From Rubricoccus marinus (GTDB lineage Bacteria; Bacteroidota; Rhodothermia; Rhodothermales; Rubricoccaceae), in assembly GCF_002257665.1 (NCBI RefSeq), contig NZ_MQWB01000001.1, forward strand, positions 2,890,619-2,954,618: a DNA stretch of 64,000 bases. Reading direction: 5' to 3'. The notes under the pieces were generated by a model. That model made no database searches and was not told the origin of the DNA. It was given only the letters and a program-made list of their open reading frames with translations. Shown in pieces: positions 14,346 through 27,237 of the stretch (the first letter of the stretch is position 1; each line of letters starts with the position of its first letter). The translations under genes were made by a program, and so were the position numbers.

Positions 14346-15143
14346 TTACTCCGGCTTCTCGAAGACGAGGATGTGCTGCTGCGGGAGCACGTCGCGGTTC
14401 TCCACGAAGCGCCAGCCGTTGGCCTCCACCTCGGCGATGGCCTGCCTCTCCGTCATCGTGTGAAGGCGCTTGATGGGGATCGTGGGGTCCTCGCCGCGGT
14501 ACTCCACGAGAACGAGCTGACCGCCCGGCCGCGTGCCGCGGAGGATGGCAGCCAGCATCTCGCGCGGGTGCGAGAACTCGTGGTACGCGTCCACGATCAG
14601 CGTGAGGTCCACGGACTCCGGCTCTAGACCGGGGTCTGAGACCGTGCCCATGACGGTCTCCACGTTCGTCGCGTTCTCCACCTCTGCGCGCCCGGCGACG
14701 ATCTGGAGCATCTCGCGCTGGATGTCGACGGCGAGCACCTTGCCCGTTGGGACGAGGGGCGCGAGGCGGAACGTGAAGTAGCCCGTGCCCGCGCCCAGGT
14801 CTGCCACCACGGCGTCGGGGGCGAGGTCCAGCGCGTCCACGAGCAAGTCCGGGCGCTCCTGGCGCGCGCGGTCCGGGCGCTCCAGCCACGCCGCGCCGCG
14901 GTGGTCCATCACGAGCGCGATCTCGCGGCCCATGTAAAACCGGCCGGTCCCATCGCGCGAGGCCTCGCCTTCCTCGTAGAAGACGCCATCGCGCGCCTGG
15001 CTCAACGAGCCTCTGGCGAAGGGCGTCGTCTGGGTGGTCTCGGCGGGCGCCAGAGGCTGCGGTTCCGGCGGGCTCTGCGCCGAGCAGCCGAGCGCGGCGC
15101 CGGTGCCCAGAAAGGCGGCGGCGAGCACGAGGCGGGTCGTCAT
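14346..15143 (-). CDS. Exported class I SAM-dependent methyltransferase (lipoprotein-like)
   Basis: A 265-residue protein from ATG at 15143, which gives MTTRLVLAAAFLGTGAALGC, an export signal with a lipobox-like AALGC (Cys20). The mature part opens with the signature RFYMGREIALVMDHRGAAWLER, then a Rossmann methyltransferase core: VVADLGAGTGYFTFRLAP (motif I) and an acidic VLAVDIQREML. Proteins of this architecture are frequent in Bacteroidota and Planctomycetota; the substrate is unknown. It is odd for a SAM-dependent enzyme to be exported, since SAM is cytosolic, so either the N-terminus stays as a membrane anchor or it works on a membrane quinone-like substrate. Confidence 0.78.
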   Translation of the reverse strand: MTTRLVLAAAFLGTGAALGCSAQSPPEPQPLAPAETTQTTPFARGSLSQARDGVFYEEGEASRDGTGRFYMGREIALVMDHRGAAWLERPDRARQERPDLLVDALDLAPDAVVADLGAGTGYFTFRLAPLVPTGKVLAVDIQREMLQIVAGRAEVENATNVETVMGTVSDPGLEPESVDLTLIVDAYHEFSHPREMLAAILRGTRPGGQLVLVEYRGEDPTIPIKRLHTMTERQAIAEVEANGWRFVENRDVLPQQHILVFEKPE

Positions 15144-25001: not shown

Positions 25002-25460
25002 TTAGTCGACGATGGTGACGGAGCCGCCAGCGGCTTCGATCTTCTCGCGAGCGGAGGCGGAGAAGGCGTGGGCGTGCACGTCGAGCTTGACGTTGATATC
25101 GCCACCACCGAGGACCTTCACGCGGCCGTTCTTGCCGCCGAAGCCCATCGCCTTGAGGCTCGCGGGGTTCACCGTGTCGCCCTCGGAGATCGCGCCGGTC
25201 TCGACGAGTGCTGCGAGGCGGTCCAGGTTGAGCGCGTCGTAGGCGACGCGGAAGCGGTTCTTGAACCCGAACTTCGGGACGCGGCGCTGGAGCGGCATCT
25301 GGCCGCCTTCGAACCACGCGGGAATGCTCGCGCCGGAGCGGCTCTTCTGGCCGTTGTGGCCCTTGCCGGCGGTGCCGCCGTTGCCGGAGCCTTCGCCGCG
25401 GCCAATGCGCTTCTTCGTCTTCGTTGAGCCCTTGGCGGGCGTCAGCTTGCTGAGATCCAT
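25002..25460 (-). CDS. rplO: Ribosomal protein L15
   Basis: A 152-residue L15 (MDLSKLTPAKGSTKTKKRIG) with the glycine-rich GRGEGSGNGGTAGKGHNGQK and the C-terminal HAFSASAREKIEAAGGS. Normally it follows rpmD directly; here two lipoprotein genes and about 1.5 kb separate them. Confidence 0.96.
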   Translation of the reverse strand: MDLSKLTPAKGSTKTKKRIGRGEGSGNGGTAGKGHNGQKSRSGASIPAWFEGGQMPLQRRVPKFGFKNRFRVAYDALNLDRLAALVETGAISEGDTVNPASLKAMGFGGKNGRVKVLGGGDINVKLDVHAHAFSASAREKIEAAGGSVTIVD

Positions 25461-25730
25461 CGTAAGAGGGGTGGCTAGAGTCGCCCGCTCCTGCTGCGCC
25501 TCTGGCGGAATGCCGGGCCGGGAGCGGACTCGCTGTGTGCCGTGCGTCTAGAGCACGACGGGCGCAGAAGATAGAGCCCCCTTTGTGTGGCCTCTGGCGC
25601 GAGGCAGAGCGTTTTACGTGAAGCGGGCCAGATGTGGGACCTCAGCGGGATCCCTGACGAGCAGGCGGAACCAGCCTCTTGCGAGGATGCTCCGACGGGA
25701 CCACTACGGATACGCCTCAGGCGCCAGAGG
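25461..25730. other. 270-base spacer ahead of rplO
   Basis: No gene seen. It contains single 9-mers near 25499 and 25589 and a one-mismatch palindrome (CCTCAGGCGCCAGAGG, 25716-25731). rplO must be transcribed from here or from read-through of the lipoprotein genes. Confidence 0.5.
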
Positions 25731-26219
25731 CTACGGCGTGGGAATGCGTGCGTAGTAGGCCCCCTCGACGGTGACCTTCGGGGGGTTGGCGCTGGACTCG
25801 ATCCGCTCCAGGCGGTACCGGAACCGCCCCCCGACCTCGCCCTCCGTCCGCACGTCGACTACGCTCCCCCTGCCCTGCCCCTCGCTATACAGCACGATAG
25901 GGGATTCCGATTTCCGATACTCTATGTGCTCACGGAATGGCTCGCCGATGGGAGCGACGAGGAGCTCACCCCCTCTGATTTCGAGGTACGGAGTAAGCAA
26001 GGGGAAGCCGTCGCCCTCAGCGTCGCAGAAGAGGCCGGAACGCGGGCTTAGCCCCGAGACGCCGACGTAGGCGCGATGCTCGTAGCGCTCGACCTCGCCG
26101 TCCTCGTAGGTCACGGTGTACTCGCACATGCCGAGCGCGGGGAGAGGCCGATTGGGGATCCCACTGTCGCACGCGGACAACAGGAGAGCCGCCAGGGGCC
26201 AGAGGTGGAGCGCTCGCAT
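25731..26219 (-). CDS. Small lipoprotein inserted in the spc operon
   Basis: A 162-residue protein with lipoprotein signal MRALHLWPLAALLLSAC (Cys17). The mature part is beta-rich: LGMCEYTVTYEDGEVERYE, a CDAEGDGFPLLTPYL block, and VGGRFRYRLERIESSANPPKV near the end. It is paralogous to the neighbour at 26255-26810. No known family was recognised. It has its own TAACTTGA -7 element at 26250-26257. Sitting between rpmD and rplO, it is foreign to the usual operon. Confidence 0.75.
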   Translation of the reverse strand: MRALHLWPLAALLLSACDSGIPNRPLPALGMCEYTVTYEDGEVERYEHRAYVGVSGLSPRSGLFCDAEGDGFPLLTPYLEIRGGELLVAPIGEPFREHIEYRKSESPIVLYSEGQGRGSVVDVRTEGEVGGRFRYRLERIESSANPPKVTVEGAYYARIPTP

Positions 26220-26249
26220 CCGAAGTCAGCGGTCAGTGACAAAGAGCAC

Positions 26250-26257
26250 TCAAGTTA
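26250..26257 (-). promoter_or_regulatory. -7-like element of the spc-inserted lipoprotein
   Basis: TAACTTGA on the minus strand, 31-38 bases upstream of the ATG at 26219; no TTG at the right distance upstream. Confidence 0.3.
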
Positions 26258-26810
26258 CCGCCCCGGCCCGACGGCCTCTGGCGCCAGAGGCTGCTCGTCG
26301 ACGACCGGCGCGTGGAAGGCGCCCTCGACGATGACCTCGGGAGGGTTGCGCGCGGACTGAAAGAGCAGCGTGCGGAATCGGAACCGGCCGCCGATCCGCT
26401 CCTCAATCGCGCACGTCAATCGTGACCTGGCCTTGCTCGTTGTAGTAGAGTGCGCCGTTCTCCTTAACGTAGGAGACGATAGGATTGAACGACTCGCCGA
26501 CAGGGACGGTGAGGAACTCGTCCTCGTTGACGCCGCTCAGCCTGAGGTAGGGCAGGTCCAAGAGGCCGACCTCCCCGTCCGCGTCGCAGATCACGCGCGC
26601 AGGGGCAGTCTCGGAGTCGAGTAGTTGAACGAAGTACGCGCGTTGTTCGATAGTCGTCGCCGCACCGTTCTCGTCCGTAACGGTGTAGGTACACATGCCG
26701 AGCGGGGGTAGCGGGAGATCCGGCGGCGTGGGGTCGAAGCCGCTGGCGAAGGAGTCGCAGCCGGTCAGTGCGAGGACGCACGCCAGAGGCAAGACGAAGA
26801 AGAACCGCAT
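26255..26810 (-). pseudogene. Frameshifted lipoprotein paralogue in the spc operon
   Basis: The intact frame 26403-26810 encodes 135 residues from a lipoprotein signal (MRFFFVLPLACVLALTGC) and a mature part matching the neighbour: LGMCTYTVTDENGAATTIEQ, then CDADGEVGLLDLPYL. It stops abruptly after TIDVRD. Another frame continues at once with AIEERIGGRFRFRTLLFQSA, then RNPPEVIVEGAFHAPV, the counterpart of GGRFRYRLERIESSANPPKV in the paralogue, and ends at TAA 26255-26257. One extra base (or two missing) near 26403-26412 explains it. It is either a recent pseudogene or a sequencing error; the truncated 135-residue form may still be exported. Confidence 0.7.
26275..26290. repeat. 16-bp palindrome at the frameshifted 3' end
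   Basis: Encodes PLAPE in the out-of-frame tail of the pseudogene, ten codons before its stop. Confidence 0.9.
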
Positions 26811-26984
26811 CGACAGAGAGAGTGGCAGGCGCCCGAACGTAGGTAACCCTGCGCCAATGCTAATTCCTACGCACGTTTGCGCGCGCCTCTGGCGTCAGAG
26901 GCTCCCACCCTGTCCCTCGTATACAACGCGGCCTCTGGCGCGAACACGCCAGAGGCCGGAGTCTTTAGAGACAGTCGCCAGAGG

Positions 26985-27164
26985 CTACGCCTCTTCGGTC
27001 GTCACCAAGTGCTTCACCACGCGGACCATGCCCTCGAGCTGAGGCGTGACCTCGTGCTCAACGGTCTGGTTCATCTTGCGGATGCCGAGCGCGACGAGCG
27101 TCCGCTTCTGCTTGGTGGAGCGGTTAATGGCGCTTCGGACCTGGGTAATCTTGATCTTCGACAT
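26985..27164 (-). CDS. rpmD: Ribosomal protein L30
   Basis: A 59-residue protein read from ATG at 27164 to TAG at 26985: MSKIKITQVRSAINRSTKQK, then LVALGIRKMNQTVEH and the C-terminal VKHLVTTEEA. The family pattern of strand-helix-helix is complete. Between rpsE and the inserted lipoproteins. Confidence 0.95.
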   Translation of the reverse strand: MSKIKITQVRSAINRSTKQKRTLVALGIRKMNQTVEHEVTPQLEGMVRVVKHLVTTEEA

Positions 27165-27193
27165 AGTTGGTATTGGCTGTGGGGCCTAGCAGG

Positions 27194-27209
27194 CCTCTGG
27201 CGCCAGAGG
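27194..27209. repeat. 16-bp palindrome between rpmD and rpsE
   Basis: Located 29 bases behind the rpsE stop codon and 30 bases ahead of rpmD. Confidence 0.9.
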
Positions 27210-27237
27210 CCGAAGCCCGCGCCGGAGACGGTCTGCT

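Follow-up and report, generated by a model that had tools for sequence, protein, structure and literature searches.

Orphan lipoprotein genes in the spc operon of Rubricoccus marinus lie upstream of a conserved, putative leader RNA of rplO

The spc operon of Rubricoccus marinus (family Rubricoccaceae, order Rhodothermales) was interrupted between rpmD and rplO by a genuine insertion that is specific to the Rubricoccus lineage. This operon is familiar from textbooks for its conserved gene order and its feedback control. The orphan lipoprotein pair concerned probably entered the rpmD-rplO spacer upstream of a pre-existing rplO promoter and RNA leader, and since it would have landed upstream of signals belonging to rplO, the rplO-secY-map genes and the alpha operon would keep their own means of expression. 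The leader appears to be a new element and a more interesting one than the insertion itself, and it is assigned a putative function throughout.

The genes lay on the minus strand of the window (i.e., the whole 64,000-nucleotide stretch analysed) in the order rpsE, rpmD, lipoprotein B, lipoprotein A, rplO, secY, map and the alpha operon. The gap between rpmD and rplO was 1,524 bp in length and contained two paralogous lipoprotein-like reading frames, as follows (a slash precedes the lipobox cysteine):

25002-25460, minus strand: rplO (uL15), the gene next downstream of the insert; identity to rplO elsewhere in the family, 72-77%
25731-26219, minus strand: lipoprotein A, an intact orphan of 162 aa with lipobox LSA/C, compared with the congener by dN/dS
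26251-26257, minus strand: TAACTTG, a possible -10 box of A
26255-26419, minus strand: out-of-frame remnant, the C-terminal third of lipoprotein B
26403-26810, minus strand: reading frame of lipoprotein B, a putative frameshifted paralogue of 135 aa with lipobox LTG/C
26834-26841, minus strand: TACGTTCG, a possible -10 box of B
26929-26958, minus strand: hairpin with a 12-bp stem formed by two inverted repeat units, directly 3' of rpmD and lacking a T-tract, a possible terminator or 3'-end element
26976-26987, minus strand: TAGCCTCTGGCG, a repeat unit overlapping the rpmD stop codon, a 3'-end signature shared with lipoprotein A
26985-27164, minus strand: rpmD (uL30), the last gene upstream of the insert

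The original prediction held that two lipoprotein genes separate rpmD from rplO; the gap, its coordinates and the two paralogous frames were correct, but B was frameshifted and only A was intact. That the insertion would be lineage-specific was borne out by synteny in relatives, since the insert was absent from all seven other genomes of the family (three other genera), where the gap measured 130-284 bp, and the lipoprotein gene itself was found only within the genus. Across the order, gaps ranged from 38 to 284 bp (28 loci with both genes in reach). Neither rplO nor rpmD was found in the assembly of the congener UWMA-0293, of which the spc region is unassembled. The gap contained no further long frame, and hence no transposase or integrase gene, nor any flanking or target duplication of the kind that would characterize a transposon or integron cassette, and the only direct repeats at the site were those due to A/B paralogy and to a genome-wide repeat. 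The stretch between 26900 and 26990, containing the hairpin after rpmD, had a folding energy of -48.8 kcal/mol (z = -3.8). Elsewhere in the family, infA was not detected in its usual position between map and rpsM in three genomes from two other genera (L024, L026 and L028).

Inspection of the translations identified a hydrophobic N-terminal signal followed by a lipobox cysteine in both frames (LLLSA/C in A and LALTG/C in B), and the two were 42% identical. The frame of B stopped at 26403, while an A-like C-terminal third (GGRFRFRTLLFQSARNPPEVIVEGAFHA) ran on in another frame between 26255 and 26419; there was a single place at which B departed from an open frame. Because the A-like C-terminus continued out of frame, B was interpreted as a probable frameshifted paralogue, sequencing error being the less likely cause. 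A programmed frameshift in B was also considered, and nothing was found in support of it. Comparison of A with its homologue in the congener gave a dN of 0.166 and a dS of 0.582, and the resulting ratio between the two species (dN/dS = 0.286) indicates that A has evolved under purifying selection. The divergence between A and B exceeded that of A between species, which suggests that the A/B duplication is older than the species split. As to the view that each lipoprotein gene may have its own promoter, TAnnTT-type boxes were present 30-40 nt before both B and A, which is suggestive only.

Neither A nor B matched Pfam or NCBIfam above cut-off. No homologue was present in plasmids, phages or viral contigs, nor in any other of 84,980 species genomes or any other relative searched, with the sole exception of UWMA-0293. 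Sequence profiles from the PDB produced matches with E values of 0.4 or worse only, and AlphaFold, applied to A and its two relatives, returned a pLDDT of 39.5, too poor for a structure search. With the orphan lipoproteins of Bacteroidota/Rhodothermota, A and B have in common a signal peptide, a lipobox and a small mature domain without known family; they differ from other lineage-specific orphan lipoproteins in their location within a core operon of ribosomal genes and in the tyrA-derived N-terminus found in the congener. Lipoprotein A may be an accessory lipoprotein of the outer membrane or periplasm, unconnected with the ribosome.

The congener is represented by a metagenome-assembled genome (UWMA-0293 or G001, contig DUBD01000224; region L023, 13.9 kb), in which the homologue of A was 75% identical and occupied L023:4568-5101, with tyrA (prephenate dehydrogenase-like, so named from its translation) on one side and an ATPase-like gene on the other. 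These two genes were adjacent in R. marinus, with no lipoprotein gene between them. A 79-bp stretch over the tyrA start in UWMA-0293 was duplicated beyond the lipoprotein gene with 82% identity, and the N-terminus of the lipoprotein was the translated repeat (MPDLSKRPARSTRIGTGLTRGSIALLVALSG/C, compared with MPDHPERPSRIALIGTGLIGGSIALALRA in TyrA), while the mature part matched R. marinus A from the lipobox cysteine onwards. The nucleotide-binding motif of the tyrA start had been turned into a signal peptide. The different site, together with the tyrA-derived N-terminus, implies that the lipoprotein gene relocates and acquires new signal peptides, and it appears to be a relocating orphan gene. 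With an N-terminus that comes from the start of an enzyme gene, the lipoprotein of the congener illustrates clearly, on a small scale, the way in which orphan secreted proteins gain new sites and signal peptides.

Between lipoprotein A and rplO, three features were recognized:

25468-25539, minus strand: rplO leader RNA, ending 7 nt before the ATG (CM match of 38.9 bits, E = 4e-8 for the genome; covariation)
25498-25507, plus strand: copy of a genome-wide 10-mer repeat, within the variable hairpin loop of the leader
25567-25573, minus strand: TATCTTC, a box resembling a -10 element, of a probable rplO promoter (present in 8/8 family members examined; TAnnTT enrichment)

The leader consensus was GCGAGUC-[variable stem]-GGCG-N-UAGC, and only a few bases separated its end from the rplO start; the corresponding parts in R. 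marinus were GCGAGUC at 25527-25533, a variable stem-loop, then GGGCG and UAGC (within 25473-25482). In an alignment of the leaders at 28 rplO loci in the order, ten columns never varied (CGAGUC and GGCG), and the stem differed in length. RNAalifold, unprompted, recovered the hairpin with five compensated pairs in these 28 leaders. Pairing was observed in 93.1% of cells, as opposed to 74.8% when shuffled and 32-46% with slid partners, while the covariation score was 0.487 against 0.128 in the control. An enlarged set, comprising 44 leaders and one chance match, produced a score of 0.501 against 0.148, and pairs that were invariant in the first set now included U-A for C-G. A conserved structure with compensatory changes, as expected of a ribosomal-protein leader (r-leader), was thus present.

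When the CM was applied to 40 relatives, and the matches judged against separately located rplO coordinates, every match with E < 5e-4 was directly before rplO, and 16 leaders outside the model-building set were recovered. In total the leader preceded this ribosomal-protein gene in 44 genomes from at least 10 of the 15 families of the order. Families f3, f9, f14 and f15 and most of f13 were without it, and in f3, f9 and f15 the rpmD-rplO spacer was also short. Beyond the order, a sample of the phylum contained no rplO-linked match; the phylum-wide match in G308 was attributed to chance, there being no rplO found in its locus. A second match in the window (14837-14892) was antisense within a predicted gene (14346-15143) and likewise dismissed as chance; it is included in alignment A3, which is slightly weakened as a result. 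Viral contigs were also scanned with a loose pattern, but the matches were due to chance and uninformative. The minimum-energy structure of the isolated R. marinus leader was not the consensus hairpin (z = -0.45), perhaps owing to the repeat in its loop.

The stretch that lies between A and rplO in R. marinus showed the same layout in 8/8 family members examined, that is, CTATCTT and then, nearer the gene, GCGAGTC-hairpin-GGCG-...AGCC. TAnnTT boxes were enriched upstream of R. marinus genes (71 in forward orientation against 25 in reverse; 0.08 per kb in coding DNA), which makes TATCTT a fair candidate for the rplO promoter; the exact hexamer was rare upstream of other genes (4 cases). Part of the ancestral spacer, CTTCACGTAAAA (common to G003), was kept downstream of A, and its survival there places the entry of the insert between rpmD and the rplO control region. 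Since the box occurred in all eight family members and the leader in most families of the order, both seem to predate the insertion. The proposal that rplO, secY, map and the alpha operon might depend on the lipoprotein transcripts was not supported by these results, because the conserved box and leader lie between A and rplO. The insertion appears ordinary in its consequence, being upstream of control signals that rplO would already have owned.

A resemblance to 23S rRNA bears on the identity of a possible ligand. Rhodothermales 23S rRNA reads AGCGAGUCUGAAUAGGGCGUAUAGUC; that of G011 reads AGCGAGUC-UGAAUA-GGGCG-UAU-AGUC and a second member of the order (G004) was similar, while the E. coli counterpart is CCGAGUC-UUAACU-GGGCG-UUA-AGUU, a domain II hairpin at about nt 634-656. 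The leader and Rhodothermales 23S rRNA share the core GCGAGUC...GGGCG...AG, including an initial G specific to the order. Given that about 1-3% of such rRNAs would contain a leader-like pattern by chance, and that the leader CM had no credible full match in E. coli rRNA, the conserved core alone being common to both, this resemblance is suggestive. The element is most likely a new r-leader and is perhaps bound by L15 itself, which is the best guess as ligand in view of the proximity of rplO, its nearest gene, of an end only a few bases before the start codon and of a match in large-subunit rRNA.

No match at the leader was found in Rfam 15 (cmscan up to E = 5, 20 loci), nor is a bacterial rplO/uL15 leader listed in the table of the catalogue of r-leaders by Eckert and Weinberg (2020; PMC7247131); the eL15 in that table is an unrelated archaeal protein. 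Like the r-leaders of that catalogue and of Rfam, the rplO element is a lineage-restricted, covarying 5' UTR hairpin beside a ribosomal-protein gene with possible rRNA mimicry, but its sequence and structure are different and its function is putative. The site through which S8 controls spc in E. coli is at rplE and mimics 16S helix 21 (PMC10931766); both elements are internal to spc, but the present one is located at rplO and resembles 23S domain II. As the lineage has no r-leader in the catalogue (PMC7247131), a conserved rplO leader would add a new class, and would also explain the tolerance of foreign genes at the rpmD/rplO spot.

The observations can be combined as follows. A gene under purifying selection and its frameshifted paralogue seem to have entered the spacer in one lineage only, having a relative at tyrA, beside a duplicated start, in the congener. 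Directly before rplO, across most of the order, is a hairpin in which GCGAGUC and GGCG are (nearly) invariant and the stem covaries. This hairpin would serve as an r-leader that represses translation on binding a free ribosomal protein, most likely L15; its end a few bases before the start codon and its likeness to the 23S domain II hairpin are consistent with such a role. With TATCTT as the probable rplO promoter, spc would be transcribed in this family as two segments divided at the rpmD/rplO boundary, and an insertion between these segments would do little harm. It is proposed, tentatively, that this is the first described leader of L15 self-control, imitating a 23S domain II hairpin, and that it marks a regulatory break in spc at rpmD/rplO in Rhodothermales that the insertion exploited.

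The leader could instead serve S4 or the protein of another downstream gene, stabilize the mRNA or provide a processing site. The downstream transcript also holds alpha-operon genes, and rpsM or rpsD operons are under the control of S4 leaders in other lineages (PMC7247131); yet rplO is the nearest gene, and likeness to 23S rather than 16S rRNA favours a large-subunit protein, so that such a role is considered unlikely, if a serious alternative to L15. An effect of the insert on regulation, whereby the promoters of rpmD or of the lipoprotein genes now drive most transcription of rplO and later genes and the lipoprotein is regulated together with ribosome synthesis, would be consistent with the strand and order of the lipoprotein genes, which are those of the operon, with the lack of a T-tract terminator after A and with the possible -10 boxes before A and B. 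This was judged improbable, given the strong hairpin after rpmD and the promoter-like box and leader after A, which have the same layout in insert-free members of the family. Assembly or sequencing error, either a misjoined scaffold or a read error causing the frameshift in B, was judged very improbable. The SG-29T assembly is a short-read draft with many repeats (4,430,441 bp in 15 scaffolds, from MiSeq and mate pairs at 58x; PMC5609423) and the single departure of B from an open frame could be explained in this way, but the insert lies within a scaffold of 3.95 Mb, the surrounding repeats are far shorter than the 300-base reads, and CTTCACGTAAAA, TATCTT and the leader join A to rplO in one retained ancestral stretch.

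The alternative that the A and B units are cassettes, moved by palindromes through recombination or template switching, concerns the repeat GCCTCTGGCG, inverted pairs of which bracket both units at a spacing of 560 and 611 nt:

25714-25731, unstranded: 18-bp repeat palindrome with one mismatch, overlapping the TAG stop of A
26274-26291, unstranded: 18-bp repeat palindrome without mismatch, separating the units of A and B
26885-26902, unstranded: 18-bp repeat palindrome with one mismatch, upstream of B

Such repeats follow a large share of R. marinus genes, moved or not, while the relocated copy in the congener was without a nearby repeat and the 10-mer was not among the enriched words of that contig; movement as cassettes is thus quite improbable. 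The palindromes around A and B are explained by the genome-wide repeat, and no role in insertion need be invoked for them. Nor are they likely to be strong terminators, being common between spc genes, with no T-tracts in the insert region.

The repeat is a striking feature in its own right. There were 193 copies of GCCTCTGGCG in the window, where 0.8 were expected, and 1,607 copies in a 464-kb sample, or about 3.5 per kb, which extrapolates to approximately 15,000 per genome. The R. marinus genome contained 982 copies of the 16-bp palindrome, the congener a single copy and the remaining members of the family 0-4. Repeat units were 2.5 times denser between genes, tended to form inverted pairs (a further example in the window is at 27193-27210) and peaked immediately after stop codons, often as TA-GCCTCTGGCG overlapping a TAG stop, as in rpmD and A; TAG terminated 168 of 350 predicted genes. 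When 17 units in the L043/L044 regions were aligned with congener region L023, ten aligned gap-free, with 4-8 of 10 bases matching, and many units therefore seem to arise by substitution rather than insertion. In density the repeat is comparable to cyanobacterial HIP1, a short motif found about once per few hundred bases both within and between genes, but the motif here is GCCTCTGGCG, whereas HIP1 is GCGATCGC and has cognate methyltransferases. In placement, the units are comparable to uptake-sequence terminators. A different 8-mer, GCTGGCGG, was enriched in the congener (36 copies in 14 kb, against 3 expected) and in one other genome of the family, G007 (L025); it may be an iterated motif of a related type or else a Chi-like site.
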